Below are positions 33,584 through 59,471 of a stretch of 64,000 nt of DNA, piece by piece. Both the position numbers and the translations under genes were made by a program. The DNA is from Cloeon dipterum (taxonomy: Eukaryota > Arthropoda > Insecta > Ephemeroptera > Baetidae): positions 18,931,681-18,995,680 of the forward strand of contig NC_088786.1 of assembly GCF_949628265.1 (NCBI RefSeq). Reading direction: 5' to 3'. Position 1 is the first letter of the stretch. The number at the start of each line of letters is the position of its first letter. The notes under the pieces were generated by a model. The model was not told the origin of the DNA. It saw only the letters and a list, made by a program, of their open reading frames with translations, and searched no databases.

Positions 33584-35936
33584 TTATTTTCCACGGGCGT
33601 CACAAACAGTGCCCTCAATCGCTTGTTGCACAGATGGACTCATGAAAACCCTGAAGTTGACATCTTTCGGGTCAATGGTCTCCAAAACAAACTTCTGATT
33701 CCTCGTAGAGATAGCCCACACTCTTTCATCATTGTCGATCTGCGTATGAATAGGCGATTTATTTCCATTAATTAATTTAAAATATTTATTCCACTAACCA
33801 CAACGGTGGCGAGAAACTGCATTGCCGTCTTGTCCTGCGCGAGGTAGCCGAAATTCCTCGGTTCAAATGGATTTTTCGAGTTTCAGCAAACGAGAGCGTC
33901 CGAATTGAGCAAGCCAAATATCATAACGCCGTTTTTGTCCATGGCGTAGCCAGCAGTTTGGCTCTGCCTGGACTTGAGGCCCGTCTTAAAAGCATTAGGG
34001 GAATTTTTGGCCTTCTTCTTGTCTCGCAATATCGACGTTTTCACCCAATGCTGCGACTCACCGCCCATCGCCGAGTAATATAATTCACGGTCTCCGTTAG
34101 CCATGCGCGGACCTGAAAAATAAATAATTATTGTGAAATTAATTAAAATAATTGTTTTGACCCAGTTCTTTATAAAAGTTTACTTTTTAGATTATTTTAT
34201 GAAGGAGAAAAATTGTATGTGTTGATACGGCAAAAATAAACAGGTATTTAAATTAATCAATTTAACGTACTTCATCTTCGTTCCTTTAAAACTTCAATCA
34301 TTTTCATAATTAAAAATTCAATTGAGGAAATCGCAAACCTAAAGCTATTCCCATGACGCCATCAATCATGTCAAAGGTTTGTCCGGCAACGTGGAAAGTG
34401 GTCAATTCAGGATTCGGATAGACGGTTTTGTCTGTAACGCGCCAAGCGTCACCGGTGGACATGTCTGCCACGATGATGGAACAAGCCACCGTGTCGGCGA
34501 TGTAGAGGAACGCTTGTTTCGGGTTTTTGCAGTCGCCCTTGGGGAATTCCACCTGTATGTTGACCGGGAGGGCATCACTTTTCACCACGTGCTATGAAAA
34601 ACAGTAAAGAGAGCAATTAGAGAAAATATGTTAATTTATATTTGCCTTGAAAAATAGAATGTCCTCTGTCTCATTGATAGCATTATTTTGGAATGAGGTT
34701 ATTTTTACTGCACGCTATTGATACAGCTTGGAACGCGTACATTTACTTTTTTAATAATATTTTAAAACATTTTAAGTTTTAAATAATTTTGACGCTCCAT
34801 CCTTTTATGCTCTTTACCGGAAATGGGATGATTTAATCTATTAAAATATATTCTGATTATTTTAACAGCTCACGCAACAAAAATATTTATAGTCTCGTTG
34901 AGCTTAATTAGTAGTCATATTGTAGAATTGCAGGAGCTAGATATTTTATTGAACTATGATGTTCCCTAAAATCTAAATTAAATCCATGAGAATCGCAATC
35001 CACCAAGAAAACTATTCAAATTTGACACAATAAACCTTTGTTGTGAACAAAAAAAAAAAATTAATAGGCAGTAACTTCTTATAACATGTCAGAGAATCGA
35101 CTCTAAAAAGATGAGTAAAACCCCTTAAAATTGGCACCAAAACCCAACTTAAAGAGATCAAAACCGTTCTAAAAATTCATCTTTTTTTGTTGAAATAAAG
35201 TTTCTTAATGACAATTTTATTCTTCTGCTAATTAATTTTAGTTTTTTAAGAACATAACATACAAACCTTCGGGAGGACGTATTGCAGGATAACTTTATCG
35301 GTTTTTAAGTCGATTGCCATAACCTTTACAGGGCAGATGCGGTCAGGCACGAGCCAAGAGGGCGACCAACCAGTGTCGATGGCCCACAACCTGTTGCATT
35401 CGTCGATAAACACCCTGAACACCGAGGTCAGCCCTTCGCAGTTGCCCTCCCTGCTCAGCTCCCAGCTGGGATAGGGGTTGAGCCGCGGCGAACGCTCGCC
35501 CTTTGCGTCAGGGTACACGGCGTAGGCCAGGGTTGCCGGCACTCCGCGCCGCCAGCGAGGCAGACACACGAACACGCGATTTCCGGCTGCCTGCAAAGCG
35601 CAAAAACACACGAAAAATCAATTAGCATTATGGCCTCGAACTTGTGCATTCAAGGTTTTCAAATTGTATCCCTAAAGCTTGTTAAATTTAATTTAAATTT
35701 TAAATTAGAATAATATAACTTACGTGAACGCCTGTTGGGTCCATAGCGGACGGCACAAAAGAACCATTTTTCAGGGCTTCCTGTCTCTGCTCCTCACTAG
35801 GGTAGTTGAAATCAAACTGACTCCACCCAAATACTTCCACGACCCGTTGCTTCGCAGGCCCTGCATCTGTTTTCTCTGCTGCGGCGAGCACTGTGCTCAG
35901 CAGAGATAAGAGGCTGGCTAACAGCAACAGCCTCAT
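33584..35936 (-). pseudogene. yellow/MRJP family gene C, interrupted by an in-frame stop
   Basis: Same plan as its paralogue C': exons 35936-35724, 35590-35267, 34591-34339, 34112-33799, 33739-33584; phases 0, 0, 1, 0; a full product would be 419 residues. In exon 4 the codon at 33885-33883 is TGA where C' and C'' have TGG (the tryptophan of DALVCWNS), so the product would end after 339 residues, losing the last propeller strands and the final cysteine. All splice sites still look usable, including a GTTTGT donor after exon 2, and no frameshift was noticed, so inactivation is recent or the base is polymorphic. Signal peptide MRLLLLASLLSLLSTVLA. Family blocks VVEVFGWSQFDFNYPSEEQR, FRVFIDECNRLWAIDTG, AWRVTDKTVYPNPE are intact. 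Very similar to C'/C'', but clearly diverged from them in introns. Confidence 0.8.
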
Positions 35937-37218
35937 ATCGGTAAATGGCAAAAGGATTATTCGATGTTAATCTGCTTTCGGATTTTTGTTCTGTCAGGAG
36001 TAATTGTTATCGAGAGGATTGGCAAACATCAAAAGGTGTTTTCTGGTGGCGCTGCTGAACCGAGTTAAAAAACATCTTGGTAATTTTGTTTTCATGTTTG
36101 CTTCAACCTCGAATACTTGCAGACCGCATACTTCCTTGCCAACCCATGATAAGGATAAAATTCGTCCGTGGTTTAGACAATTCTTATCAAATTGCTATTT
36201 TCAGATTGCGCATTATTTTTTGTCTAGTTTGTATCCAAACAGTCATGAATATGCAAATTGTTGGGTTTATTCTCTCTTTTCGTTTATCTCATACAAAATG
36301 AATAAATCAAGACTAATTGCAGAAAATGTTGACGAAAAATAAAAAAGCTCATTTTGAACATTTTCTGGATATTTATTAGCAATAGCCCCATATCGATTTA
36401 TGGCATGGATTTTTCAATGTTGATCTGCTTTCGGAGTTTTTTCTGTTAGGGTGAGCGATTGTAGAAGGCTCAGCAAGCTGCGTTGCGCCGCGCAAGCCGG
36501 CAAATTTTGGGTAACGTGGGCAGCCGCTGTGAATCTGGCTAAGCTTCGCCAGCCATGCCAGCTACCGAGGAAAAAGGGTCAAAAAATAAAAAAATGCGTG
36601 AAAGAGAAAAAATGTCTTCCGGCCCTTCAGACCGTTAAACACGATCAAACTTCACGTTTAAAAAATTGTCAGCCGCACCATTCGCAGGTGAAAATGGCCA
36701 GCCACCGCCGGGCAAAAAATTTGGCAAACTAAGCCCGGCAGTCACCGTCTTAAATCTCGCGGGTGAGACCTCTAAGCAAATTTTATCGAAAATGTGAATT
36801 AGCAAACAACAAAAGATGTTTTCTTATGGCACTGTTAAACAACATTTTGGGAATTTTGTTTTCATGTTTGCTTAAACCACGAATATTTTTAAACCGCAAA
36901 TTTCCCTGTCAACATGTCAAAGGACAACATTTGTCTGCGGTTTAGACTTAAACTTATCAAATTGCTAAATTTTCAGACTACATTTTAAGTCTGGTATGTC
37001 CAAATTTTTAAATGATTGGGTTTTAATCTCTCTTTTACGTTTAGATTCAAAATTTGGTTTATTACGGATCAGCAGGGTACCGTACATCAAAAGAATAATC
37101 AAGATTCTGCAGGAATGTTTAAGAAAAACAAAAAGGCTTCCTTGGAATATTAATCATCTGAATACTTTTATTGTTATAATTCTTATAGAAAATAGTAAAT
37201 AACGTCGAGAATCAAATA
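35937..37218. other. spacer between C and D with an internal duplication
   Basis: Starts in the 5' flank of C; the left end of the 10,367-bp unit lies here (36082-36100). Two related segments, about 36010-36300 and 36775-37120, share GCAAACANCAAAAGNTGTTTTCT, TTTTGTTTTCATGTTTGCTT and TTATCAAATTGCTA blocks. Between them, 36400-36460 resembles the sequence just upstream of C (GATCTGCTTTCGGANTTTT). A G+C-rich insert at 36450-36770 has no counterpart upstream of D''. No coding gene supported. Confidence 0.55.
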
Positions 37219-39046
37219 TCAAAATTCATTAGTTCTGTCCCTCTTGTAGGCCCTTTTTTTCTTTATTTCGTCATTATCACAAATGGTCCCCTTGACTGCA
37301 GTGACGGTGCTTTCGCTCATAAAAACGCGAGTGCTGATCTCATTGGGGTTCATCTTTTCTGAGAAATACGTCTGTATGCCTGAAGAAATAGCCCAGAGGC
37401 GCCCAGTTTCATCAATCTATATTCATGACAAACTGTAAAAAACCTTCAACTCTCCAAACTGAAATTCCGCATACCGTTACTTCTGCGAGGAACTTCATTG
37501 CCACTTTGTCCTGCGCCAAGACACCGAAGAACCTACTTTCGTAGGGGTTGCGGCGAGAGTTCCAGCAAACGAGGGCATCCGAGTTTAGCAGCCCAAAAAA
37601 CAGCACACCATTCTTGTCCATGGCGTAGGCGCCTGTTTGGCTGGTTCGCGGCAGGGACCCGGTTTTGAATTCATCGCGCGGAGGGCTCAAGACAGAGTCC
37701 TTGTTGCGAAGAACGGACGTTTTCACCCAGTGCTGTTTGAATGAGCTCATTGACGAAAAATATAACGTTCGGTCACCTTTCCCAGGGGCACCTATACACG
37801 AAAAGAGGGTCATTCTCAGAATGAAGGAATATTTAAAAATAATTATGAGATTTGAACTAAATAAACATTGAAATGCAAGGAAATTTTAAAATCATTAAAT
37901 TTTTAGTAGGTAATGCACTCATGATTCACGGAATATTGTTAGAAAGAAATAAAAACGATAATGGAGGATTTTATTTTTGTAAAAAGAATTAATAGAGCTT
38001 TGCAACGGACCAGATATTAATAATAGCAATCCTTGCCAAAAAAGCAGCTGAATATTAATAAAACTCTAGAAAGATATCGTGGCTTTCGGTTTTTTTTACA
38101 GAAATATTCCAAACAAAGTATGTTTTATTCGTTTCATACTCAGGGCCATTCCCATAATTCCGTTCATCGTTTCAAAGGTTTTTTTTCCAACGTGGAAAGT
38201 GCTTGCTTCTGGATCGGGGAGAACGGTTTTCTGAATGATTCGCCACGACTGGCCAGAAGACAAATCAGCAACGATTATCGCAAAGGAGGCAGTGTCTGCA
38301 ATGTAAAGGAACGCGTCTTTTGGCGAGCCGCAGGTGCCCTTTGGATACTCCACCTTGATGTTAACAGGCAACGACTCGTTTCTCACAGCTTCCTGCAAAA
38401 CGTGTTTTTTTTTTTACAAGTCCCGCCCGTATTAAACCATCCAGACTTACTTCGTCTTTTAGGATGAAGGTGTTGACAAGTTTGTCTGTTTTGAGGTCAA
38501 AGGTGAGCACCTTGGCAGGACAGACTCTAGTGTACTCGTGCTGAATGGAACTTGCTATGCCTGTGTCGAGGACCCACAGCCTCCCGCACTCATCTGTTGT
38601 GACCCTGAACACCGAGGTCAAGCCCTGGCATTGGCCCACCTTTTGAGAGGCCCAGTCAGGGTAGGGGGTAAGCGGGGGCGCAGCGTCCCTGGAGGGGTAC
38701 TCGACGAACGCCAGAGTCGCGGGAATGCCCTTGGGTTTCCAGCGAGGCATGGAGAGGAAGACGCGGTTACCAGCCACCTTTGTTTTTTAGGTTAATAATT
38801 ATCAGGACAAGAAATTAGTGAGGATATTACATGGACTCCAGCGACATGCACGTCAGAAGGGTTGAATTCGCCGCTGCTGATGGCCTCTGCCCGTGCCTTG
38901 GGGCTAGCATATTTAAAATCGATCTGCTTCCAGCCAAATACCTGCTTCACTCGCGCGTCGTCCAGTGGCGGAAACCCTACGGCCTGCACTAATGGGGTCA
39001 GGTGCAGGACGCCAAACAGAAAACAGGTCGGAAGCAACATTTTCAT
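37219..39046 (-). CDS. yellow/major royal jelly protein family gene D
   Basis: Exons in transcript order: 39046-38831, 38777-38451, 38392-38140, 37791-37475, 37416-37219; phases 0, 0, 1, 0; 436 residues. Signal peptide starts MKMLLPTCFLFGVLHL. Blocks: VKQVFGWKQIDFKYASPKAR, VFLSMPRWKPKGIPATLAFV, QGLTSVFRVTTDECGRLWVL, AFLYIADTASFAIIVADL, SWRIIQKTVLPDPEAS (elsewhere WRVTDKT), AMDKNGVLFFGLLNSDALVC, LWAISSGIQTYFSEKMNP. The C-terminus after GTIC is an unusual lysine/arginine-rich tail (NDEIKKKRAYKRDRTNEF) shared by D' and, with changes, D''. Intron 1 is only 53 bases and its acceptor (ACAAAG) lacks a pyrimidine tract. A TATA box is at 39100-39105. The copy D' at +10,367 looks the same throughout. 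Confidence 0.9.
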
Positions 39047-39099
39047 GAGATCCCTTAACTCGCCGCGTACTTTAAATGATGGGCTTTTGGGTTTCCGTC

Positions 39100-39105
39100 T
39101 TTATA
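39100..39105 (-). promoter_or_regulatory. TATA box of yellow gene D
   Basis: TATAAA on the minus strand (CGTATAAAGACGG), 54 bases upstream of the ATG at 39046. The copy for D' is at 49467-49472. Confidence 0.55.
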
Positions 39106-39309
39106 CGTTTGTGGTTTGGCTTGAGAGCAACAAAAACAACATAAAAAATACTTATCGCTTTATACTTCCTCTGCGACATTATACACGGGGACGAATTTCT
39201 ATGCTCATCGTTTGGATAATTTGCGCCTACTTTTGATTCTCTTGCAATAACGAGGGTCTACTTCAGATTTGGAGGGAGTTTGCTTCATGCAGTCCAACTC
39301 GCACCATTT

Positions 39310-39840
39310 TTTTTTAATAATAATAATTTTTATTTGTCTTTTGGCATGTACATAATTTAACACAGTAATGCAATAAACCACATACATCCAATTGCAAATC
39401 AAACATTCAGTTACATTCACTCAAAAAGAAAAGAAAAATTGAAGTTGCTACAACTTCTGTACACAATCAAAATACTCTTCAGCACTATAAAACTGTTTTT
39501 GATGTACAAATTCACGCAGCATAGCAACAAACTCCTTATAACGCGGCTCAAGACGAAGAGACACTGGCAGCGCATTATACAAAGTAGCTGTCCAGCATGC
39601 GTAAATGAATTTCACGGGACGAATGCCCAGCATTGAAAGATCCCGGTGCGGAGGCAGAAACACGATCGAGCCTTTGTCTTTTCTGAATCGGGTTTTGTCT
39701 AACGAGGCCCGTGCACCCATGATATTCGTTTGCGAGTATATGTAATTGGGACAATTTTTGAGTGTTGTACGTTATCAGGGGCCGTCTCAAAACTGGTGAA
39801 TCTATCATATCATATTTAAATGCGACGTATGACATACGCC
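39310..39840 (-). mobile_element. LINE (non-LTR retrotransposon) 3' relict
   Basis: The minus-strand frame 39720-39448 ends in a pattern typical of the C-terminus of non-LTR reverse transcriptases: a hydrophobic/tryptophan stretch, then LYNALPVSLRLEPRYKEF and MLREFV. Upstream sequence (39835-39575) continues in another frame, so the piece is decayed. Beyond the stop comes an untranslated tail ending AATAAAAATTATTATTATT and a run of nine A at 39309-39317, the usual LINE 3' end. 5'-truncated; the clade is not identified. A second copy at 49677-50207 exists only because of the tandem duplication. Confidence 0.55.
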
Positions 39841-40540
39841 GTCACTGCTTGAGAGGCTGTCAATTTGTCTAATTAAAATTATTTGCAAGAATAATAAATG
39901 TATGCTAGTTAGCATATATTTATGTACTGTGAGTGAATTCTTTACATTTTTGGATTGTTAAATACGTCGATATAATTTAAGCCTAGTTTTTAAATTTTGT
40001 TTGCTAATTTTTACACTGTACAAACACACCAATATGGCACAAGACACAAGATTGATTGTACTTACTTGATCCCCTGTGATATGAAGAACCTAAGATGAAT
40101 AGAAAAATATTTGTCCAACTTTTATTTAACTTATTATGTAGATTATGGAAGCTACCTAACACCTTAAATGAAACTGAAATTTAACCTTTCTTTATACTGC
40201 TAAAAAAATACGAAAAACAAAATTATACTACAACAATTATATTATAAGGGATATGACTGAGTTTTATATTCACTGCGCAAATTCACGACCTGAGACAGGT
40301 CAGGTGTACCACTTCTTGTTAACTTTTTTAACGGCATTTATACATTGATATAGAGATTGGGTGACTACATTTACGTTGCTTCTCTGGCAGAGCTTTTAAA
40401 TCGATGCGCCATTTAGCCACATCCTCTTTTAATAGCTGTCAGCGAAACGCAAAACAAGAAACGGCACTCATTAGTTTTCCTGCTGTAATAAAATGCTGTA
40501 ACCAGTTTGCATTTCTTGAGAGGTCACAAGTTAATCCGCG

Positions 40541-43196
40541 ATGCATCGAAAAGCAGTGCCGTTTTTAGCCTTTTCCGTGATTCTTCTCCTTCTGCACTCG
40601 CAGAGCTCGGTTTGCAACCGCAGGAAAGGTCACCAATATGAGCAGTATTACTGGAACACCCGTAACTCTTCTTCGCGCTCCGGTGAGGTTAGAGAAGTTT
40701 TCAACTGGAAGCAACTGGACTTTGAATTTCCCAACGAGCAAATGCGGGGACAAGCGATTCAAAGTGGTGCTTTCGTGGAGATAAATTCATCAATGCCACT
40801 TTCCCTGGAGGTATTTAAATAAAATAAAACTAAAATAAAATAACAAACGATTTGCAGGCTGACAGCACGCGTTTATTTGTGTCGGCACCACGTTGGCGTC
40901 AAGGTGTTCCCTTCACCCTGACCTATTTGCCCTTGCCCGGTGCTGACCCAAAGCGCGTACCAACCCAGTCCTCACCCCGTTTGAAACCTTACCCCAATGC
41001 CGAGGCGAACCGCCAGGGAAACTGCGACGGTCTGACCTCCGTCTTCAGGATGTCTATTGATAATTGTAACAGACTTTGGGTCGTGGACACCGGCAGGGTT
41101 GGCGCACAACAACTCTGCCCTCCTCAGGTTATCGCTTTCGACCTGCAGACCGATGCTATCGTCTACAGGCACCGATTCTCGCAGGTTGACCAGAAAAAAT
41201 ATAGTTTTCAATATAATTGACGGAGAAGAATAACCAAATTAAAAAATATATTGGGACGATAACATTATCATTCAAATAGTCTAAGTGTAGTCTTTTTGGT
41301 AGTTTTATATATTGCCACTCTGCCCTCCAACCAAACCTATTTGATATTGAACTAAAATAGTGTCAGTTACCTGATAATAAAATTATTGATGTATATGTAG
41401 TCATATTTTGCTTTTTAAACGGAAGTGATAAATTATATAATTCATATCTGATGAAAAATGGACATTGCCATATTTTACACCTCGATTGACTGGGAAATAT
41501 ATTTTATTTTTTATTCCCACCTTGAATGAAAATTCCAAAACTTATATTTTACAGATTGTTAGTTTTGATTAATTAAGAAAAAACAGCTAAAAAACAAATC
41601 CTGTCAAATTTAATGTTAAAAATTGCGTAATTAGGAATCCTTGCTGTGCAACTCGCAACCCACAAACATCGCTGTTGAATATAAAGCAGAGGCCCAGTGT
41701 GGAAGAGGAAATAATTTGGATGCTTTCTTGTATGTGACGGACACGTTGGCCTACGCTATCATTGTCATCGACACCTCGAGTGGAAGGTCATGGCGCGTGT
41801 CCGACAAGAGCATGTTCCCCAACCCCGAGGCCGGTTCTTTTAACGTGCAAGGCGTCAAATTCGACTTAATGGACGGCATTCTTGGGCTTGCTATAGGTGG
41901 GATAAAATTTTGCTGTGCAGACGAAAAAGTATTTATAAAAATAAATTGAAATTTGAATTTAAAATTAGTTTGATAGCAGTAAATAACAAACCTCAATCAG
42001 GCTCTGCATTGGCACACATTTTAATTCTAAATATTAAATGATTTAATAATTTTTTAATTACGATTTCCTCCCTTTTAGGACCTCCTAGGTACTACAAAAA
42101 TGACCGTGATTTGTTCTACAACCCGATGACCTCATTCCAACACTTCTGGGTGCGTACGTCTCGTCTCCAGAATGAAAACGCGACGACTCCTTCCAACCCT
42201 CAGCCATTTGAGACTTTCCAGACAGGGCAATGGAAACGCAATTCTCAGTCGGCAGGCTGCGGCATCAGCTCCAGCGGCGTTCTCTTCTTTGGGCTCGTCA
42301 ACCAAAACGCCCTTGCTTGCTGGGACACGTCCAAACCATACACGGCCCAAAACATTGCTGTTCTAAAAAAAGATGACGAGAAACTGCAGTTTCTCTCAAC
42401 CGTTGTGGTCAGTATATTAGCCACTATTTTTTTGCAACCGATTTAGAACCAGCCCGTTGGATCGTATTGTTAAGGCGTTCTCAGGAGTGTCGAAGCAATA
42501 GGGGGACATTAAAGCATTTCAGGGATATTTTAATGGCTGCTTGTTGCGAATGACTGCAACACAGCAAACCTGAGAATTAGTGCCCTCCAACACCTTAACT
42601 TACAGCTCGTATAACTGGAACGGCTCCTGACTTACCAGCAAAGCTCGCTGCCGCTCTTGCTCGTCTTGAATATTTTCTATTGAGCTCGTTTGGGCAGTTC
42701 TGGCCGCTGACTCGAAATGCTAAAATAGCTCAACGGGCTGGGAGGCGCACCGGCGCCGAATCGCCACTAGATGGTTTTCACACTTTCCAGCGGCTTTAAG
42801 GACAAATTAATGTAAAGTACGTGTTTCAATAAAAGACCTCGGTGCGGGGAGACGAAAAGATGGCCACATTGGGCCCAAGCTGCTGTGCGGCCACTTGGGC
42901 CCCATATTATCCGCTTGACGGAGTTATTTGAACTCGGTGAGCTCAAAGCCCACGGAAAGTGCTGAGCAGACAAAAATACAAGAAAAAATAAATAAATGTG
43001 TTTCTGATCCTTATAGGTTGATCGCATGGACCGATTGTGGGCGCTGTCTACTCGTTTCCAACGCTTCTTCACGAACAGCCTCAACCCTGAAGATGTTAAC
43101 TTCCGAATTTTCTCCGGCACAGCCGCAGAAGCAGTGCGCAACACTGCGTGCTACGTTCCAACCCTTGGAGAAGGTCCAATGCGTGGTTGGGCGTAA
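40541..43196 (+). CDS. yellow/major royal jelly protein family gene E
   Basis: Opposite strand to its neighbours. Exons 40541-40810, 40858-41184, 41635-41896, 42079-42407, 43017-43196; phases 0, 0, 1, 0; 455 residues. Signal peptide (VPFLAFSVILLLLHSQSSVC), then a basic/tyrosine-rich spacer (RRKGHQYEQYYWNTRN) before VREVFNWKQLDFEFPN. Blocks: FVSAPRWRQGVPFTLTYL, GLTSVFRMSIDNCNRLWVVD, AFLYVTDTLAYAIIVIDTSS, WRVSDKSMFPNPEAGSF, FDLMDGILGLAIG, SGVLFFGLVNQNALACWDTS, LWALSTRFQRFFTNSLNPED, NFRIFSG. The most diverged member here: exon 3 is 9 bases longer and the MDKNG motif is GISSSG. The C-terminus ends GEGPMRGWA. Intron 4 hosts a copy of the dispersed repeat. The ATG is chosen as the only one giving a signal peptide. 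Confidence 0.9.
42449..42972 (+). repeat. dispersed repeat, copy 3 (in intron 4 of gene E)
   Basis: 42731-42972 matches the core of copies 1 and 2 (GGGCTGGGAGGCGCACCGGC, AAAAGATGGCCACATTGGGC). 42449-42560 matches the extension of copy 2. CCAGCCCGTTG at 42449-42459 and CAACGGGCTGG at 42731-42741 are exact inverse complements, so a 293-bp piece is bounded by 11-bp inverted repeats. The fourth copy, 52816-53339, is its tandem-duplication twin. Confidence 0.75.
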
Positions 43197-44162
43197 AAAT
43201 CAATATTTATTATCATTAGAATAATACACAGTAAAATGGGTTGTAAATTAATAATAAATTTATTCATACCTAATTGAGTTGAGACAAATAAATATTATCT
43301 TCATCCTTGATAAAATTACTCATTTTGAATAAATGATCCAGTGATCAAAATATTTTTGACCAAACTACGATATGTATACTAAATAAAATATTAGTACAAA
43401 TTTTTACGAAATATCTTTTCAATACACCAACAGAATTTTCCCGTTTGAATATATAAGGGGCTATATGCTGGATCGGTTAAAATCTCTTTTTAAATGTAAA
43501 AATGAAATCAGGGTTACTATAGGGGAGGTTTAACATTAAATATATCAAAGAGTAAAACTGTAAATCCTATAATTCAAGGGGCTATGAGTTCTTCAACGGA
43601 AAGCTGTTCACTTCAGCGATTAAAATCAATAAAATACCACTCTAAAAATCTTTTTTTCAATTTCATTAAATCCCTTAGCACTTTGACACTTGTCGTGTTT
43701 CTTCACGCACTACTCACAGAAGACCATGTGTGTCGTAGCCCATTCTGACTTCCTGCTCGGACTATTCGACAGGTTGCTTGCACAGCTTCACGTAGGCGCA
43801 TTTGGGAGAGATCTTTTCGTGCTCGCAATTATTTTTATTATGACTATTATTGTTAGATTAGAATAAACAATTATATATTCAACGTTCCAAAATAACTGAC
43901 CACCCTGAAAAGAGTGGTTGGGGTGTGATCGAAATTACAACGGCTCGCCGGTCAGAAACTGTAGAAGTTTTGATAGTGAAATTTTCAACCCTTTCAGACG
44001 AGTGGTTTCGTCGCTGCACCAAAACAGTTTCTTATGGGAATCTCATTTTAAACCAATTTTTGGAAAAAAGTTTCGAAACTTCTCATCATGCAAATGTGAT
44101 TTCTAGACCAATATTTTGCGCTGATTCAGAATCTGAGGTCAATTTTTGTTCCGGCATCCGAA
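43197..44162. other. convergent spacer between E and C'
   Basis: AT-rich 3' flanks of E (+) and C' (-), with a decayed fragment of the IAP RING exon at 43677-43824. Nothing else supported. Confidence 0.5.
43677..43824 (-). pseudogene. IAP RING-exon fragment, copy 1
   Basis: Matches about 60442-60650 of the IAP gene further right, same orientation: TCACAGAAGACCATGTG, then, after a gap of about 60 bases relative to the gene, GTAGCCCATTC and CGACAGGTTGCTTGCACAGC through CACGTAGGCGCATTTGGG. The gap removes the first zinc ligands of the RING. Substitutions throughout. Only last-exon sequence is seen, so retroposition and segmental duplication cannot be told apart here. Confidence 0.8.
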
Positions 44163-46301
44163 TTATTTTCCATGGGCGTCACAAACGGTGCCCTCAATCG
44201 CTTGTTTCACAGATGGACTCATGAAAACCCTGAAGTTGACATCGTTTGGGTCAATGGTGTCCAAAACAAACTGCTGAATCCTAGCAGAGAGAGCCCACAC
44301 TCTTTTAATATTGTCGATCTGCGTATGAATAGGTATAATTTATTTCCATTAATTAATTTAAAATATTTATTTCACTTACCACGACGGAGACGAGAAACTG
44401 CATTGCCGTCTTGTCCTGCGCGAGGTAGCCGAAATTCCTCGGTTCAAATGGACTTTTTGAGTTCCAGCAAACGAGAGCGTCCGAATTGAGCAAACCAAAT
44501 ATCATAACGCCGTTTTTGTCCATGGCGTAGCCAGCAGTTTGGCTCTGCCTGGACTTGAGGCCCGTCTTAAAAGCATTAGGGGAATTTTTGGCCTTCTTCT
44601 TGTCTCGCAATATCGACGTTTTCACCCAATGCTGCATGTCACCGCCCATCGCCGAGAAATATAATTCACGGTCTCCGTTAGCCATACGCGGACCTGAAAA
44701 ATAAATAATTAATGTGAAATTAAATAAATTAATTTATGTGACCAAGGGCAGGTTCAATATTACGAATTATTTTTTTTTAGATATTTCAATGAAATTAATT
44801 ATATTAAATTATATTTATGTATTGATGCGCAAGAATGACCAAGTATATCTTTTATCTTTTTCATTATTAAAATTCAATTGAGGAAGTCGCAAACCTAAAG
44901 CCATTCCCATGACGCCATCCGTCAAGTCAAAGGTTTGTCCACCAACGTGGAAAGTGGTCCATTCGGGATTCGGATAGACAGTTTTGTCTGTAACACGCCA
45001 AGCGTCACCGGTGGACATGTCTGCCACAATGATGGAGTAGGCCACTGTGTCGGCGATGTAGAGGAACGCTTGTTTCGGGTTTTTGCAACCGCCCTTAGGA
45101 AATTCCACCTGTATGTTTGCCGGAAGGGCATCACTTTTCAACACGTGCTGTGAAAAACAGTAAAGACTGGAATTAGCGGAAATCTGATATTTTTTAATTT
45201 ACTTGACACATATAGAATGTCATCTCTGTGTCTCATTGATTTTATTAGTTTAGAATAAGATTATTTTTCCTCACACTTTCCTTTAGATTGACTTACGTAC
45301 ATTTGTTTTTTGTAATTCAAAAATTATTTTAAATTCGACGATCATTTACAGAATATAATTTGATGTATTATGTAAAAAAACCCATTCAAACTAGACACAA
45401 AAACATTTTTGGAGACAAAAAAATAATAGCTCTATTGCTTATATATAAGGCAATAGCTTTGATTGTTGGAAAATCGAGGTAAAATCCTCTAAACCGGCTC
45501 TAGGATCCAACTAAAAGAGATCAAAACCGTTCTTTTATGCTGAAAAAATTCTCTTTTTGACACCAATTTTTTTCTTTACCCAATATTTAAGTTTTAGTTT
45601 TTAAGAACAAACAAATAATTAAAACCTTCGGAAGGACGTATTGCAGGACAACTTTATCGGTTTTTAGGTCGATTGCCATAACCTTTACAGGGCAGATGCG
45701 GTTAGGCACGAGCCACGAGGACGACCAACCAGTGTCGATGGCCCACAACCTGTTGCATTCGTCGATAAACACCCTGAACACCGAGGTCAGCCCATCGCAG
45801 TTGCCCTCCCTGCTCAGTTCCCAGCTGGGATAGGGGTTGAGCCGCGGCGAACGCTCGCCCTTTGCGTCAGGGTACTCAGCGTAGGCCAGGGTTGCCGGCA
45901 CTCCGCTCTTCCAGCGAGGCAGACTCACGAACACGCGATTTCCGGCTGCCTGCAAAGCGCAAAAACACATGAAAAAATCAATTAGCATTATGGCCTCGAA
46001 CTTGTGCATTCAAGGTTTTCAAATTGTATCCCTAAAGCGTTTCAAACTTAATTTAAAGTTTTAAATTTCAATAATATAACCGACATACGTGAATACCTGT
46101 TGGAACAGCGGCGGACGGCACAAAAGAACCATTTTTCAGAGCTTCCTGTCTCTGCTCCTCGCTAGGGTAGTTGAAATCAAACTGACTCCACCCAAATACT
46201 TCCACGACCCGTTGCTTCGCAGCCCCTGCATCTTTTTTCTCTGCTGCGGCGAGCACTGTGCTCAGCAGAGATAAGAGGCTGGCTAACAGCAACAGCCTCA
46301 T
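44163..46301 (-). CDS. yellow/major royal jelly protein family gene C'
   Basis: Intact paralogue of C. Exons in transcript order: 46301-46089, 45949-45626, 45147-44895, 44693-44380, 44318-44163; phases 0, 0, 1, 0; 419 residues. Signal peptide MRLLLLASLLSLLSTVLA; blocks VVEVFGWSQFDFNYPSEEQR, VFVSLPRWKSGVPATLAYAE, GLTSVFRVFIDECNRLWAID, AFLYIADTVAYSIIVADM, AWRVTDKTVYPNPEWTTF, GVMGMALG, MDKNGVMIFGLLNSDALVCW, VWALSARIQQFVLDTIDP, NFRVFMSPSVKQAIEGTVC. The tryptophan codon lost in C is TGG here. The donor after exon 2 is AAG then GTTTTA, a poor match to the usual GTAAGT. The cysteine framework equals that of C. Its 5' flank carries the right-hand breakpoint of duplication unit 1. C'' is its copy at +10,367. 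Confidence 0.9.
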
Positions 46302-47585
46302 ATCGGTATATGGCAAGGATTATTCGATGTCAATCTGCTTTCGGATTTTTGATCTGTCAGGAGTAATTATTGTTATCGAGAGAAGTAGCAAACACCAAAA
46401 GATGTTTTCTGGTGGCTCTGTTGAGCCAATTTGAAAAACATTTTGGGGAATTTTGTTTTCATGTTTGCTTCAACCTCGAATACTTGCAGACCGCATACTT
46501 CCTTGCCAACCCATGATAAGGATAAAATTCGTCCGTGGTTTAGACAATTCTTATCAAATTGCTATTTTCAGATTGCGCATTATTTTTTGTCTAGTTTGTA
46601 TCCAAACAGTCATGAATATGCAAATTGTTGGGTTTATTCTCTCTTTTCGTTTATCTCATACAAAATGAATAAATCAAGACTAATTGCAGAAAATGTTGAC
46701 GAAAAATAAAAAAGCTCATTTTGAACATTTTCTGGATATTTATTAGCAATAGCCCCATATCGATTTATGGCATGGATTTTTCAATGTTGATCTGCTTTCG
46801 GAGTTTTTTCTGTTAGGGTGAGCGATTGTAGAAGGCTCAGCAAGCTGCGTTGCGCCGCGCAAGCCGGCAAATTTTGGGTAACGTGGGCAGCCGCTGTGAA
46901 TCTGGCTAAGCTTCGCCAGCCATGCCAGCTACCGAGGAAAAAGGGTCAAAAAATAAAAAAATGCGTGAAAGAGAAAAAATGTCTTCCGGCCCTTCAGACC
47001 GTTAAACACGATCAAACTTCACGTTTAAAAAATTGTCAGCCGCACCATTCGCAGGTGAAAATGGCCAGCCACCGCCGGGCAAAAAATTTGGCAAACTAAG
47101 CCCGGCAGTCACCGTCTTAAATCTCGCGGGTGAGACCTCTAAGCAAATTTTATCGAAAATGTGAATTAGCAAACAACAAAAGATGTTTTCTTATGGCACT
47201 GTTAAACAACATTTTGGGAATTTTGTTTTCATGTTTGCTTAAACCACGAATATTTTTAAACCGCAAATTTCCCTGTCAACATGTCAAAGGACAACATTTG
47301 TCTGCGGTTTAGACTTAAACTTATCAAATTGCTAAATTTTCAGACTACATTTTAAGTCTGGTATGTCCAAATTTTTAAATGATTGGGTTTTAATCTCTCT
47401 TTTACGTTTAGATTCAAAATTTGGTTTATTACGGATCAGCAGGGTACCGTACATCAAAAGAATAATCAAGATTCTGCAGGAATGTTTAAGAAAAACAAAA
47501 AGGCTTCCTTGGAATATTAATCATCTGAATACTTTTATTGTTATAATTCTTATAGAAAATAGTAAATAACGTCGAGAATCAAATA
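46302..47585. other. spacer between C' and D' with the duplication junction
   Basis: 46302-46448 is the 5' flank of C'; 46449-46467 is the junction string; the rest repeats 36101-37218, including the internal duplication and the G+C-rich insert (here about 46817-47137). Confidence 0.6.
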
Positions 47586-49413
47586 TCAAAATTCATTAGT
47601 TCTGTCCCTCTTGTAGGCCCTTTTTTTCTTTATTTCGTCATTATCACAAATGGTCCCCTTGACTGCAGTGACGGTGCTTTCGCTCATAAAAACGCGAGTG
47701 CTGATCTCATTGGGGTTCATCTTTTCTGAGAAATACGTCTGTATGCCTGAAGAAATAGCCCAGAGGCGCCCAGTTTCATCAATCTATATTCATGACAAAC
47801 TGTAAAAAACCTTCAACTCTCCAAACTGAAATTCCGCATACCGTTACTTCTGCGAGGAACTTCATTGCCACTTTGTCCTGCGCCAAGACACCGAAGAACC
47901 TACTTTCGTAGGGGTTGCGGCGAGAGTTCCAGCAAACGAGGGCATCCGAGTTTAGCAGCCCAAAAAACAGCACACCATTCTTGTCCATGGCGTAGGCGCC
48001 TGTTTGGCTGGTTCGCGGCAGGGACCCGGTTTTGAATTCATCGCGCGGAGGGCTCAAGACAGAGTCCTTGTTGCGAAGAACGGACGTTTTCACCCAGTGC
48101 TGTTTGAATGAGCTCATTGACGAAAAATATAACGTTCGGTCACCTTTCCCAGGGGCACCTATACACGAAAAGAGGGTCATTCTCAGAATGAAGGAATATT
48201 TAAAAATAATTATGAGATTTGAACTAAATAAACATTGAAATGCAAGGAAATTTTAAAATCATTAAATTTTTAGTAGGTAATGCACTCATGATTCACGGAA
48301 TATTGTTAGAAAGAAATAAAAACGATAATGGAGGATTTTATTTTTGTAAAAAGAATTAATAGAGCTTTGCAACGGACCAGATATTAATAATAGCAATCCT
48401 TGCCAAAAAAGCAGCTGAATATTAATAAAACTCTAGAAAGATATCGTGGCTTTCGGTTTTTTTTACAGAAATATTCCAAACAAAGTATGTTTTATTCGTT
48501 TCATACTCAGGGCCATTCCCATAATTCCGTTCATCGTTTCAAAGGTTTTTTTTCCAACGTGGAAAGTGCTTGCTTCTGGATCGGGGAGAACGGTTTTCTG
48601 AATGATTCGCCACGACTGGCCAGAAGACAAATCAGCAACGATTATCGCAAAGGAGGCAGTGTCTGCAATGTAAAGGAACGCGTCTTTTGGCGAGCCGCAG
48701 GTGCCCTTTGGATACTCCACCTTGATGTTAACAGGCAACGACTCGTTTCTCACAGCTTCCTGCAAAACGTGTTTTTTTTTTTACAAGTCCCGCCCGTATT
48801 AAACCATCCAGACTTACTTCGTCTTTTAGGATGAAGGTGTTGACAAGTTTGTCTGTTTTGAGGTCAAAGGTGAGCACCTTGGCAGGACAGACTCTAGTGT
48901 ACTCGTGCTGAATGGAACTTGCTATGCCTGTGTCGAGGACCCACAGCCTCCCGCACTCATCTGTTGTGACCCTGAACACCGAGGTCAAGCCCTGGCATTG
49001 GCCCACCTTTTGAGAGGCCCAGTCAGGGTAGGGGGTAAGCGGGGGCGCAGCGTCCCTGGAGGGGTACTCGACGAACGCCAGAGTCGCGGGAATGCCCTTG
49101 GGTTTCCAGCGAGGCATGGAGAGGAAGACGCGGTTACCAGCCACCTTTGTTTTTTAGGTTAATAATTATCAGGACAAGAAATTAGTGAGGATATTACATG
49201 GACTCCAGCGACATGCACGTCAGAAGGGTTGAATTCGCCGCTGCTGATGGCCTCTGCCCGTGCCTTGGGGCTAGCATATTTAAAATCGATCTGCTTCCAG
49301 CCAAATACCTGCTTCACTCGCGCGTCGTCCAGTGGCGGAAACCCTACGGCCTGCACTAATGGGGTCAGGTGCAGGACGCCAAACAGAAAACAGGTCGGAA
49401 GCAACATTTTCAT
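47586..49413 (-). CDS. yellow/major royal jelly protein family gene D' (copy of D)
   Basis: Exons in transcript order: 49413-49198, 49144-48818, 48759-48507, 48158-47842, 47783-47586; same phases and 436 residues. I found no difference from D in protein or in the intron lines compared, so the two would be indistinguishable to short reads. TATAAA at 49467-49472 on the minus strand. If the duplication is real, dosage of D is doubled with the same promoter. Confidence 0.88.
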
Positions 49414-50907
49414 GAGATCCCTTAACTCGCCGCGTACTTTAAATGATGGGCTTTTGGGTTTCCGTCTTTATACGTTTGTGGTTTGGCTTGAGAGCAACAA
49501 AAACAACATAAAAAATACTTATCGCTTTATACTTCCTCTGCGACATTATACACGGGGACGAATTTCTATGCTCATCGTTTGGATAATTTGCGCCTACTTT
49601 TGATTCTCTTGCAATAACGAGGGTCTACTTCAGATTTGGAGGGAGTTTGCTTCATGCAGTCCAACTCGCACCATTTTTTTTTAATAATAATAATTTTTAT
49701 TTGTCTTTTGGCATGTACATAATTTAACACAGTAATGCAATAAACCACATACATCCAATTGCAAATCAAACATTCAGTTACATTCACTCAAAAAGAAAAG
49801 AAAAATTGAAGTTGCTACAACTTCTGTACACAATCAAAATACTCTTCAGCACTATAAAACTGTTTTTGATGTACAAATTCACGCAGCATAGCAACAAACT
49901 CCTTATAACGCGGCTCAAGACGAAGAGACACTGGCAGCGCATTATACAAAGTAGCTGTCCAGCATGCGTAAATGAATTTCACGGGACGAATGCCCAGCAT
50001 TGAAAGATCCCGGTGCGGAGGCAGAAACACGATCGAGCCTTTGTCTTTTCTGAATCGGGTTTTGTCTAACGAGGCCCGTGCACCCATGATATTCGTTTGC
50101 GAGTATATGTAATTGGGACAATTTTTGAGTGTTGTACGTTATCAGGGGCCGTCTCAAAACTGGTGAATCTATCATATCATATTTAAATGCGACGTATGAC
50201 ATACGCCGTCACTGCTTGAGAGGCTGTCAATTTGTCTAATTAAAATTATTTGCAAGAATAATAAATGTATGCTAGTTAGCATATATTTATGTACTGTGAG
50301 TGAATTCTTTACATTTTTGGATTGTTAAATACGTCGATATAATTTAAGCCTAGTTTTTAAATTTTGTTTGCTAATTTTTACACTGTACAAACACACCAAT
50401 ATGGCACAAGACACAAGATTGATTGTACTTACTTGATCCCCTGTGATATGAAGAACCTAAGATGAATAGAAAAATATTTGTCCAACTTTTATTTAACTTA
50501 TTATGTAGATTATGGAAGCTACCTAACACCTTAAATGAAACTGAAATTTAACCTTTCTTTATACTGCTAAAAAAATACGAAAAACAAAATTATACTACAA
50601 CAATTATATTATAAGGGATATGACTGAGTTTTATATTCACTGCGCAAATTCACGACCTGAGACAGGTCAGGTGTACCACTTCTTGTTAACTTTTTTAACG
50701 GCATTTATACATTGATATAGAGATTGGGTGACTACATTTACGTTGCTTCTCTGGCAGAGCTTTTAAATCGATGCGCCATTTAGCCACATCCTCTTTTAAT
50801 AGCTGTCAGCGAAACGCAAAACAAGAAACGGCACTCATTAGTTTTCCTGCTGTAATAAAATGCTGTAACCAGTTTGCATTTCTTGAGAGGTCACAAGTTA
50901 ATCCGCG
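49414..50907. other. shared upstream region of D' and E'
   Basis: Copy of 39047-40540: D' TATA box, LINE 3' relict at 49677-50207, AT-rich remainder. Confidence 0.5.
49677..50207 (-). mobile_element. LINE 3' relict, tandem-duplication copy
   Basis: Twin of the relict at 39310-39840, at +10,367, with the same reverse-transcriptase C-terminus remnant (frame 50087-49815) and ATT-repeat tail. Not an independent insertion. Confidence 0.55.
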
Positions 50908-53563
50908 ATGCATCGAAAAGCAGTGCCGTTTTTAGCCTTTTCCGTGATTCTTCTCCTTCTGCACTCGCAGAGCTCGGTTTGCAACCGCAGGAAAGGTCAC
51001 CAATATGAGCAGTATTACTGGAACACCCGTAACTCTTCTTCGCGCTCCGGTGAGGTTAGAGAAGTTTTCAACTGGAAGCAACTGGACTTTGAATTTCCCA
51101 ACGAGCAAATGCGGGGACAAGCGATTCAAAGTGGTGCTTTCGTGGAGATAAATTCATCAATGCCACTTTCCCTGGAGGTATTTAAATAAAATAAAACTAA
51201 AATAAAATAACAAACGATTTGCAGGCTGACAGCACGCGTTTATTTGTGTCGGCACCACGTTGGCGTCAAGGTGTTCCCTTCACCCTGACCTATTTGCCCT
51301 TGCCCGGTGCTGACCCAAAGCGCGTACCAACCCAGTCCTCACCCCGTTTGAAACCTTACCCCAATGCCGAGGCGAACCGCCAGGGAAACTGCGACGGTCT
51401 GACCTCCGTCTTCAGGATGTCTATTGATAATTGTAACAGACTTTGGGTCGTGGACACCGGCAGGGTTGGCGCACAACAACTCTGCCCTCCTCAGGTTATC
51501 GCTTTCGACCTGCAGACCGATGCTATCGTCTACAGGCACCGATTCTCGCAGGTTGACCAGAAAAAATATAGTTTTCAATATAATTGACGGAGAAGAATAA
51601 CCAAATTAAAAAATATATTGGGACGATAACATTATCATTCAAATAGTCTAAGTGTAGTCTTTTTGGTAGTTTTATATATTGCCACTCTGCCCTCCAACCA
51701 AACCTATTTGATATTGAACTAAAATAGTGTCAGTTACCTGATAATAAAATTATTGATGTATATGTAGTCATATTTTGCTTTTTAAACGGAAGTGATAAAT
51801 TATATAATTCATATCTGATGAAAAATGGACATTGCCATATTTTACACCTCGATTGACTGGGAAATATATTTTATTTTTTATTCCCACCTTGAATGAAAAT
51901 TCCAAAACTTATATTTTACAGATTGTTAGTTTTGATTAATTAAGAAAAAACAGCTAAAAAACAAATCCTGTCAAATTTAATGTTAAAAATTGCGTAATTA
52001 GGAATCCTTGCTGTGCAACTCGCAACCCACAAACATCGCTGTTGAATATAAAGCAGAGGCCCAGTGTGGAAGAGGAAATAATTTGGATGCTTTCTTGTAT
52101 GTGACGGACACGTTGGCCTACGCTATCATTGTCATCGACACCTCGAGTGGAAGGTCATGGCGCGTGTCCGACAAGAGCATGTTCCCCAACCCCGAGGCCG
52201 GTTCTTTTAACGTGCAAGGCGTCAAATTCGACTTAATGGACGGCATTCTTGGGCTTGCTATAGGTGGGATAAAATTTTGCTGTGCAGACGAAAAAGTATT
52301 TATAAAAATAAATTGAAATTTGAATTTAAAATTAGTTTGATAGCAGTAAATAACAAACCTCAATCAGGCTCTGCATTGGCACACATTTTAATTCTAAATA
52401 TTAAATGATTTAATAATTTTTTAATTACGATTTCCTCCCTTTTAGGACCTCCTAGGTACTACAAAAATGACCGTGATTTGTTCTACAACCCGATGACCTC
52501 ATTCCAACACTTCTGGGTGCGTACGTCTCGTCTCCAGAATGAAAACGCGACGACTCCTTCCAACCCTCAGCCATTTGAGACTTTCCAGACAGGGCAATGG
52601 AAACGCAATTCTCAGTCGGCAGGCTGCGGCATCAGCTCCAGCGGCGTTCTCTTCTTTGGGCTCGTCAACCAAAACGCCCTTGCTTGCTGGGACACGTCCA
52701 AACCATACACGGCCCAAAACATTGCTGTTCTAAAAAAAGATGACGAGAAACTGCAGTTTCTCTCAACCGTTGTGGTCAGTATATTAGCCACTATTTTTTT
52801 GCAACCGATTTAGAACCAGCCCGTTGGATCGTATTGTTAAGGCGTTCTCAGGAGTGTCGAAGCAATAGGGGGACATTAAAGCATTTCAGGGATATTTTAA
52901 TGGCTGCTTGTTGCGAATGACTGCAACACAGCAAACCTGAGAATTAGTGCCCTCCAACACCTTAACTTACAGCTCGTATAACTGGAACGGCTCCTGACTT
53001 ACCAGCAAAGCTCGCTGCCGCTCTTGCTCGTCTTGAATATTTTCTATTGAGCTCGTTTGGGCAGTTCTGGCCGCTGACTCGAAATGCTAAAATAGCTCAA
53101 CGGGCTGGGAGGCGCACCGGCGCCGAATCGCCACTAGATGGTTTTCACACTTTCCAGCGGCTTTAAGGACAAATTAATGTAAAGTACGTGTTTCAATAAA
53201 AGACCTCGGTGCGGGGAGACGAAAAGATGGCCACATTGGGCCCAAGCTGCTGTGCGGCCACTTGGGCCCCATATTATCCGCTTGACGGAGTTATTTGAAC
53301 TCGGTGAGCTCAAAGCCCACGGAAAGTGCTGAGCAGACAAAAATACAAGAAAAAATAAATAAATGTGTTTCTGATCCTTATAGGTTGATCGCATGGACCG
53401 ATTGTGGGCGCTGTCTACTCGTTTCCAACGCTTCTTCACGAACAGCCTCAACCCTGAAGATGTTAACTTCCGAATTTTCTCCGGCACAGCCGCAGAAGCA
53501 GTGCGCAACACTGCGTGCTACGTTCCAACCCTTGGAGAAGGTCCAATGCGTGGTTGGGCGTAA
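50908..53563 (+). CDS. yellow/major royal jelly protein family gene E' (copy of E)
   Basis: Exons 50908-51177, 51225-51551, 52002-52263, 52446-52774, 53384-53563; 455 residues; no difference from E noticed. Intron 4 again holds the dispersed repeat (52816-53339). It lies divergent to D' and convergent to C''. Confidence 0.88.
52816..53339 (+). repeat. dispersed repeat, copy 4 (tandem-duplication twin of copy 3)
   Basis: Copy of 42449-42972 at +10,367, in intron 4 of E'. Confidence 0.75.
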
Positions 53564-54529
53564 AAATCAATATTTATTATCATTAGAATAATACACAGTA
53601 AAATGGGTTGTAAATTAATAATAAATTTATTCATACCTAATTGAGTTGAGACAAATAAATATTATCTTCATCCTTGATAAAATTACTCATTTTGAATAAA
53701 TGATCCAGTGATCAAAATATTTTTGACCAAACTACGATATGTATACTAAATAAAATATTAGTACAAATTTTTACGAAATATCTTTTCAATACACCAACAG
53801 AATTTTCCCGTTTGAATATATAAGGGGCTATATGCTGGATCGGTTAAAATCTCTTTTTAAATGTAAAAATGAAATCAGGGTTACTATAGGGGAGGTTTAA
53901 CATTAAATATATCAAAGAGTAAAACTGTAAATCCTATAATTCAAGGGGCTATGAGTTCTTCAACGGAAAGCTGTTCACTTCAGCGATTAAAATCAATAAA
54001 ATACCACTCTAAAAATCTTTTTTTCAATTTCATTAAATCCCTTAGCACTTTGACACTTGTCGTGTTTCTTCACGCACTACTCACAGAAGACCATGTGTGT
54101 CGTAGCCCATTCTGACTTCCTGCTCGGACTATTCGACAGGTTGCTTGCACAGCTTCACGTAGGCGCATTTGGGAGAGATCTTTTCGTGCTCGCAATTATT
54201 TTTATTATGACTATTATTGTTAGATTAGAATAAACAATTATATATTCAACGTTCCAAAATAACTGACCACCCTGAAAAGAGTGGTTGGGGTGTGATCGAA
54301 ATTACAACGGCTCGCCGGTCAGAAACTGTAGAAGTTTTGATAGTGAAATTTTCAACCCTTTCAGACGAGTGGTTTCGTCGCTGCACCAAAACAGTTTCTT
54401 ATGGGAATCTCATTTTAAACCAATTTTTGGAAAAAAGTTTCGAAACTTCTCATCATGCAAATGTGATTTCTAGACCAATATTTTGCGCTGATTCAGAATC
54501 TGAGGTCAATTTTTGTTCCGGCATCCGAA
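53564..54529. other. convergent spacer between E' and C''
   Basis: Copy of 43197-44162 with the second IAP fragment at 54044-54191. Nothing else supported. Confidence 0.5.
54044..54191 (-). pseudogene. IAP RING-exon fragment, copy 2
   Basis: Twin of the fragment at 43677-43824, at +10,367; same internal gap. Confidence 0.8.
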
Positions 54530-56668
54530 TTATTTTCCATGGGCGTCACAAACGGTGCCCTCAATCGCTTGTTTCACAGATGGACTCATGAAAACCCTGA
54601 AGTTGACATCGTTTGGGTCAATGGTGTCCAAAACAAACTGCTGAATCCTAGCAGAGAGAGCCCACACTCTTTTAATATTGTCGATCTGCGTATGAATAGG
54701 TATAATTTATTTCCATTAATTAATTTAAAATATTTATTTCACTTACCACGACGGAGACGAGAAACTGCATTGCCGTCTTGTCCTGCGCGAGGTAGCCGAA
54801 ATTCCTCGGTTCAAATGGACTTTTTGAGTTCCAGCAAACGAGAGCGTCCGAATTGAGCAAACCAAATATCATAACGCCGTTTTTGTCCATGGCGTAGCCA
54901 GCAGTTTGGCTCTGCCTGGACTTGAGGCCCGTCTTAAAAGCATTAGGGGAATTTTTGGCCTTCTTCTTGTCTCGCAATATCGACGTTTTCACCCAATGCT
55001 GCATGTCACCGCCCATCGCCGAGAAATATAATTCACGGTCTCCGTTAGCCATACGCGGACCTGAAAAATAAATAATTAATGTGAAATTAAATAAATTAAT
55101 TTATGTGACCAAGGGCAGGTTCAATATTACGAATTATTTTTTTTTAGATATTTCAATGAAATTAATTATATTAAATTATATTTATGTATTGATGCGCAAG
55201 AATGACCAAGTATATCTTTTATCTTTTTCATTATTAAAATTCAATTGAGGAAGTCGCAAACCTAAAGCCATTCCCATGACGCCATCCGTCAAGTCAAAGG
55301 TTTGTCCACCAACGTGGAAAGTGGTCCATTCGGGATTCGGATAGACAGTTTTGTCTGTAACACGCCAAGCGTCACCGGTGGACATGTCTGCCACAATGAT
55401 GGAGTAGGCCACTGTGTCGGCGATGTAGAGGAACGCTTGTTTCGGGTTTTTGCAACCGCCCTTAGGAAATTCCACCTGTATGTTTGCCGGAAGGGCATCA
55501 CTTTTCAACACGTGCTGTGAAAAACAGTAAAGACTGGAATTAGCGGAAATCTGATATTTTTTAATTTACTTGACACATATAGAATGTCATCTCTGTGTCT
55601 CATTGATTTTATTAGTTTAGAATAAGATTATTTTTCCTCACACTTTCCTTTAGATTGACTTACGTACATTTGTTTTTTGTAATTCAAAAATTATTTTAAA
55701 TTCGACGATCATTTACAGAATATAATTTGATGTATTATGTAAAAAAACCCATTCAAACTAGACACAAAAACATTTTTGGAGACAAAAAAATAATAGCTCT
55801 ATTGCTTATATATAAGGCAATAGCTTTGATTGTTGGAAAATCGAGGTAAAATCCTCTAAACCGGCTCTAGGATCCAACTAAAAGAGATCAAAACCGTTCT
55901 TTTATGCTGAAAAAATTCTCTTTTTGACACCAATTTTTTTCTTTACCCAATATTTAAGTTTTAGTTTTTAAGAACAAACAAATAATTAAAACCTTCGGAA
56001 GGACGTATTGCAGGACAACTTTATCGGTTTTTAGGTCGATTGCCATAACCTTTACAGGGCAGATGCGGTTAGGCACGAGCCACGAGGACGACCAACCAGT
56101 GTCGATGGCCCACAACCTGTTGCATTCGTCGATAAACACCCTGAACACCGAGGTCAGCCCATCGCAGTTGCCCTCCCTGCTCAGTTCCCAGCTGGGATAG
56201 GGGTTGAGCCGCGGCGAACGCTCGCCCTTTGCGTCAGGGTACTCAGCGTAGGCCAGGGTTGCCGGCACTCCGCTCTTCCAGCGAGGCAGACTCACGAACA
56301 CGCGATTTCCGGCTGCCTGCAAAGCGCAAAAACACATGAAAAAATCAATTAGCATTATGGCCTCGAACTTGTGCATTCAAGGTTTTCAAATTGTATCCCT
56401 AAAGCGTTTCAAACTTAATTTAAAGTTTTAAATTTCAATAATATAACCGACATACGTGAATACCTGTTGGAACAGCGGCGGACGGCACAAAAGAACCATT
56501 TTTCAGAGCTTCCTGTCTCTGCTCCTCGCTAGGGTAGTTGAAATCAAACTGACTCCACCCAAATACTTCCACGACCCGTTGCTTCGCAGCCCCTGCATCT
56601 TTTTTCTCTGCTGCGGCGAGCACTGTGCTCAGCAGAGATAAGAGGCTGGCTAACAGCAACAGCCTCAT
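54530..56668 (-). CDS. yellow/major royal jelly protein family gene C'' (copy of C')
   Basis: Exons in transcript order: 56668-56456, 56316-55993, 55514-55262, 55060-54747, 54685-54530; 419 residues; no difference from C' noticed. Its 5' flank continues past 56834 in the C'-flank version of the sequence, into the spacer before D''. Confidence 0.88.
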
Positions 56669-57149
56669 ATCGGTATATGGCAAGGATTATTCGATGTCAA
56701 TCTGCTTTCGGATTTTTGATCTGTCAGGAGTAATTATTGTTATCGAGAGAAGTAGCAAACACCAAAAGATGTTTTCTGGTGGCTCTGTTGAGCCAATTTG
56801 AAAAACATTTTGGGGAATTTTGTTTTCATGTTTGTTTAAACCACGAATACTTGCAAACCACAAAATTCAGTGACAACATGATAAGGATAAAATTCGTCTG
56901 TGGTTTAGACAATTCTTATCAAATTGCTATTTTCAGATTATGCATTTTTTTTGTCTAGTTTGTATTCAAACCGTCGTCAATATGCAAATTGTTGGGTTTT
57001 CATCACTCTTTTTGCATATCATGTATACAAGGAAAGAAATTTAGTCTCTGCAGGAATGTCAAAGAAATAAATGCTCTCTTTGAATATTAATTTTCTGGAT
57101 ATTTATTGGTGGGATGATTCATATCGAAATTGTTTACAAACGTCGGGCA
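56669..57149. other. spacer between C'' and D''
   Basis: 481 bases, against 1282 between C and D. It has one copy of the CATGTTTG / TTATCAAATTGCTA segment and lacks both the second copy and the G+C-rich insert found upstream at 36400-36775. This is likely the simpler, ancestral form of the C-D spacer. Confidence 0.5.
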
Positions 57150-58960: not shown

Positions 58961-59373
58961 TCTCGTGAGCTCCCAGACTCGCCGCGTACTTAAATGATTG
59001 GATTTTTGTTTTTCGTCTCTATAAGTGTTTGCGGTTTGGCTTGAGAGCGACAAGAAAAAACATATTATGCTTATCGCTTTACTTCCTCTGCGACATTAAA
59101 CAGGGACGAATTTCTTTGCTCGCCGCTTGGTTGATCTGCGCTTGCTTTTTTCTCTTTTGCATTGCAAATATAAAAAGTCTACTTTGGATTTGGAAGGATT
59201 GCTTCCTGCTCCTGCAGTCCATGGATGCTCCACTGCAGAACTCTCCTGGAGTAAGCTAAACAATTGATAAAATCGTAGTCCACTCGTCTCTATTCAACCA
59301 GCTAACACCTCCTTTTGCAAGTGCAACTTAGCGGCTTCCTATGATCCAATCTTCCGACAACAATAGATAAAGA

Positions 59374-59471
<98 letters not shown>

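Follow-up and report, generated by a model that had tools for sequence, protein, structure and literature searches.

Changes in the copy number of yellow genes can matter, as the wood tiger moth illustrates with its valkea duplication (PMC10635649). According to the sections of that report cited here, one yellow-family gene was duplicated, an unduplicated yellow-g2-like gene lies between the copies, and the duplication was verified by read depth and PCR and tied to a phenotype. The locus of Cloeon dipterum described here resembles valkea in being, probably, a recent duplication in a yellow-family cluster, but it comprises three genes, arranged head to tail with zero divergence. Short-repeat-mediated tandem amplification through unequal sister-chromatid exchange has been described in another system (PMC8831618). 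As presented in the cited part of that work, its unit is bordered by short repeats common to each junction. This is also the case in our locus, but its short repeat belongs to a longer paralogous flank of 1.2 kb, and the units number just two. In the Drosophila simulans complex, lineage-specific tandem duplications have been reported, some of them with whole genes (PMC7919458). Our locus is comparable to these ordinary insect tandem duplications in carrying complete genes. In the portion of the report considered, however, the Drosophila duplications are common to three species and hence older, whereas the copies described here are undiverged.

We analyzed a stretch of 64,000 nucleotides (NC_088786.1, positions 18,931,681 to 18,995,680), hereafter called the window. 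Self-comparison of the window revealed that positions 36082-46467 equal positions 46449-56834 at an offset of 10,367, with 0 differences across 10,386 bp, and that the exact match stops abruptly at both edges. A match of this length at this offset corresponds to a unit of 10,367 bp plus 19 bp common to both ends (Table 1), and the outer edges of the units are formed by a 19-mer at 36082-36100 and 56816-56834. The repeat had been noted at the same offset by an earlier, sequence-only reading of this locus, and not a single mismatch contradicts it. The three genes of the unit (B1, X, and A2) have the same sequence in both copies, introns as well as coding sequence.

Table 1. Features of the yellow cluster (positions in the window)
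Feature	Position	Strand	Description
Unit copy 1	36082-46448		10,367 bp; right part of F1, F1b, B1, X, A2, left part of A2 flank; exact match to 46449-56815
Unit copy 2	46449-56815		10,367 bp; exact match to copy 1; B1, X, and A2 coding sequences identical
A1	33584-35936	-	Yellow-family gene outside unit; five exons; in-frame TGA
F1	35144-36377		A1 5' end and upstream flank; 87% identical to F3
F1b	36385-37043		Older partial flank duplicate, holds 19-mer at 36852; 73-81% matches to F1; dispersed-repeat matches
B1, first copy	37219-39040	-	Intact five-exon yellow-family gene; 434 aa
B1/B2 tract	38183-39041 and 58103-58961		Near-identical, 859 bp, 1 substitution; also at 48550-49408
Dispersed repeat	39315-39591		Young, 277 bp, within unit; same site in both copies
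X, first copy	40541-43196	+	Intact five-exon yellow-family gene; 455 aa
A2, first copy	44163-46301	-	Intact; five exons; 419 aa; hybrid upstream region
F2	45507-46744		Hybrid flank of first A2, F3-type left and F1-type right by informative columns; junction 50-mer unique in genome
Putative exchange tract	46449-46467		19 bp at hybrid junction; no informative column within; types switch across it
B1, second copy	47586-49407	-	Identical to first
X, second copy	50908-53563	+	Identical to first
A2, second copy	54530-56668	-	Identical to first; with F3 upstream flank
F3	55874-57107		Second A2 5' end and upstream flank; paralogous to F1
B2	57150-58960	-	Intact B1 paralogue outside unit; five exons

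Matches to the MRJP/yellow profile PF03022 occur exon by exon from ∼23 to 58.5 kb of the window. A1, B1, X, A2, and B2, for which we built five-exon models with GT-AG introns, all have exon-wise matches over the curated cut-off and thus belong to the yellow/MRJP family by profile; the earlier count of three yellow genes per unit is confirmed by these matches and by intact models. The frames of B1, X, A2, and B2 are open. A2 was chosen for full-length comparison with solved family members in the PDB, and its spliced product finds dopachrome conversion enzyme (5.1e-48), MRJP1 (9.4e-45), and the 43.2-kDa salivary protein (8.4e-29). A1 differs in having one TGA (33883-33885, codon 340 of 419), which is TGG in A2, in an otherwise open frame, probably a young loss of function. 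Two further family members are located at ∼23-24.8 kb and ∼26.5-28.5 kb of the window. Contig C2 harbors, in arrays, a very large and distinct yellow-like family, whose copies reach 91% identity over 4.9 kb and whose open frames of ∼200-420 aa often contain two parts of the MRJP profile; counted by eye, ∼100 of the ∼150 PF03022 matches listed (of 199) fall on C2, nearly all between 0.39 and 4.6 Mb. Within 20 kb of this contig (C2:2712001-2732000), two adjoining frames resemble, by eye, a single-pass membrane tail.

Comparison of the A-gene 5' flanks (F1, F2, and F3) revealed that they can be aligned over 1.2 kb, in agreement with the paralogy that the sequence-only reading had assigned to the flanks of these genes, there called C, C', and C''. 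We classified F2 at informative columns, i.e. those where F1 and F3 differ, with each gap column counted singly. Left of the central 19-mer, F2 is F3-type at 111/111 such columns, and right of it F1-type at 69/69, precisely the C'-type and C-type halves that had been proposed. No mosaic pattern is found at the 180 informative columns, only one clean switch, which thus falls within the 19 bp at 46449-46467, exactly in register and 148-166 bp upstream of the ATG of the first A2 (46301). The middle A gene is wholly A2-type and identical to the last A at every position of 44163-46448. The 19-mer (AATTTTGTTTTCATGTTTG) had been reported to occur three times; these occurrences are present (36082, 46449, and 56816), but the window contains five in total, the extra two starting at 36852 and 47219. 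Both are located inside F1b, an older partial duplicate of the A-gene flank, whose pieces in the first unit (36385-36450 and 36798-37043) are split by a dispersed repeat at ∼36461-36774. The partner in the putative exchange is F1, not F1b. F1b lies between A1 and B1; this A-gene 5' flank had already been duplicated before. GATA-type motifs were considered as a conserved flank element and rejected: the four flank blocks contain 3, 3, 2, and 1, compared with ∼1 in shuffles (P 0.07 to 0.64).

The copies lie head to tail and are joined by a hybrid of two homologous, in-register flanks, the arrangement by which a tandem duplication through non-allelic homologous recombination is recognized. From the identity of the units, the hybrid junction, its register, and the intact frames, we infer that the animal probably carries a real and very recent tandem duplication that arose by one such exchange. 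The ancestral order would have been A1-B1-X-A2-B2. The upstream flank of A1 on one chromatid may have mispaired with the diverged upstream flank of A2 on the other, the chromatids being homologues or sisters, and unequal crossing-over inside the 19-bp identical tract would have generated A1-[B1-X-A2]-[B1-X-A2]-B2. The first A2 would have kept its own coding region and the proximal 148 bp, with A1-type sequence further upstream. One exchange between the mispaired flanks would account at once for the length of the unit, the head-to-tail order, the hybrid flank, and its register. Unequal crossing-over between these flanks had been suggested before, and it is supported by the register and the single switch free of mosaicism, and further by a unique junction, by the lack of a third copy of the queried stretches, and by other marks of ectopic exchange in the cluster, namely the older flank duplicate F1b and the B1/B2 tract (see below).

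A replication-based or end-joining duplication might instead have used the 19 bp as microhomology, independent of any crossover between paired paralogues. The common tract is indeed short, and longer ones were left unused: the A1 and A2 regions share 62 identical runs of at least 10 bp, and 25 of these exceed 19 bp (maximum 141 bp), which counts against simple length-driven pairing. However, both breakpoints are found at exactly homologous flank positions, which a random join would rarely hit, and we regard this route as very unlikely. Identical units would likewise be produced by the assembler, if overlaps between the A1 and A2 regions had formed a graph loop that was traversed twice. These regions are 84-87% identical in two ∼1.2-kb blocks and could be confused by noisy reads; the risk of a loop is higher if the assembly was built from such reads. 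Accurate long reads do not get joined via 19 bp within an 87%-identical flank, which is too short and too diverged for their overlap. The clean switch without mosaicism, the uniform A2 type of the middle A gene, and the fact that 264 kb contain no other exact long repeat beyond those named below also speak against a loop, which appears unlikely.

The sequence-only reading had cautioned that an assembly artefact might look similar, and the repeated path, i.e. the loop, stands as the part of this caution to be reckoned with. Its other part concerns a second haplotype placed wrongly; this is less likely, as such a sequence would normally carry heterozygous differences. Failed haplotig purging is a common assembly fault and may stack two haplotypes of one locus in tandem, but the complete identity of the units would then demand an almost homozygous animal, and simple stacking makes no hybrid flank. 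We consider this extremely improbable.

The search for copies elsewhere in the genome is in line with a single exchange that produced two units. In the assembly of 190,111,064 bp, a 50-mer spanning the hybrid junction has a single occurrence. A 1,201-base query from F2 returned the three A loci, at 100, 94, and 95% identity, and three weaker paralogous places, and an 841-base query from X returned exactly two places, at 100% each; a third copy of these stretches of X and the A2 flank was not found in the genome. A 10-kb query with the whole unit, for which 39 of 3,067 candidates were scored, returned only pieces of dispersed repeats and not even the copies in the window. It is thus uninformative on absence, and the copy search rests on the 1,201 bases of F2, the 841 bases of X, and the junction pattern. 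We scanned 264 kb of contiguous sequence without N (the window and 100 kb on each side) for exact repeats of at least 200 bp and found none beyond the unit, the B1/B2 tract, and a single dinucleotide run. With BLAST at 95% identity or more, one additional pair appeared (904 bp, 96% identical), located to the right of the window. The 277-bp repeat at 39315 is a young mobile or dispersed element: 12 compared copies elsewhere in the genome are 89.8-99.6% identical, and the best of them has 0 mismatches and a single gap. At 59377-59468, ∼0.4 kb upstream of the B2 ATG, the dinucleotide CT is repeated perfectly 46 times. The window contains no tRNA genes by ARAGORN (bacterial code) and no Rfam family at the gathering score. 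Exact (TTAGG)5 was not found in the whole assembly, which would mean that the genome lacks the telomere repeat usual in arthropods or that the chromosome ends are unassembled. An exon-wise genome search, a weak method, gave 5 matches to the insect odorant-receptor family and 1 to odorant-binding proteins; for C. dipterum, 49 odorant-receptor and 191 odorant-binding genes have been reported (PMC7250882).

The zero differences in 10,386 bp limit divergence between the units to fewer than ∼3 in 10,386 (95%). At an insect mutation rate of ∼3e-9 per site and generation, the duplication would be fewer than ∼50,000 generations old; if the units were later converted by one another, it could appear younger than it is. 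Both units contain the 277-bp repeat at the same site, and the duplication would therefore be younger than this insertion.

To the features listed by the sequence-only reading our analysis adds two more 19-mers, the stop codon in A1, and a tract of putative conversion between B1 and B2. The right end of this tract lies at the ATG. When B1/B2 and A1/A2 identity was calculated in 100-column windows, B1 and B2 were 46-80% identical outside the tract in most windows of introns and flanks, whereas windows covering the last two exons reached 89-98%. When the 206 columns that differ, out of 2,090, were shuffled 5,000 times, no stretch containing one difference or none was longer than 154. The 859-bp tract thus looks like gene conversion, and the conversion looks either older than the unit duplication or directed into B2 as the recipient afterward. 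The coding sequences of A1 and A2 show 75 differences in 1,257 bases (dS 0.12, dN 0.045), and the mainly intronic windows of the two genes are mostly <75% identical, as if the exons had been homogenized or the introns evolved faster. Taken together, the B1/B2 tract and the exon-intron contrast in A1/A2 suggest that ectopic exchange seems habitual in this yellow cluster.

The duplication would likely supply each of three yellow-family proteins in one additional dose, and the regulation of the first A2 of the duplicated pair would likely be partly swapped. A1 has an in-frame TGA; should this codon disable the gene, the event may have raised the number of intact A-type genes from one to two. The duplication might even be a segregating or newly fixed variant that had been favored, with A2 having taken over the lost expression domain of its paralogue A1 via the A1-type distal upstream sequence, but we think this quite unlikely. 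The class of event is well known, and our locus exemplifies this ordinary kind cleanly. If real, it would represent a tandem gene duplication near its birth: substitutions have yet to accumulate, the point of exchange can still be read, and one copy carries swapped upstream sequence from the outset. In combination with the B1/B2 tract and the stop codon of A1, the duplication would make gene birth, death, and homogenization observable in one yellow cluster.
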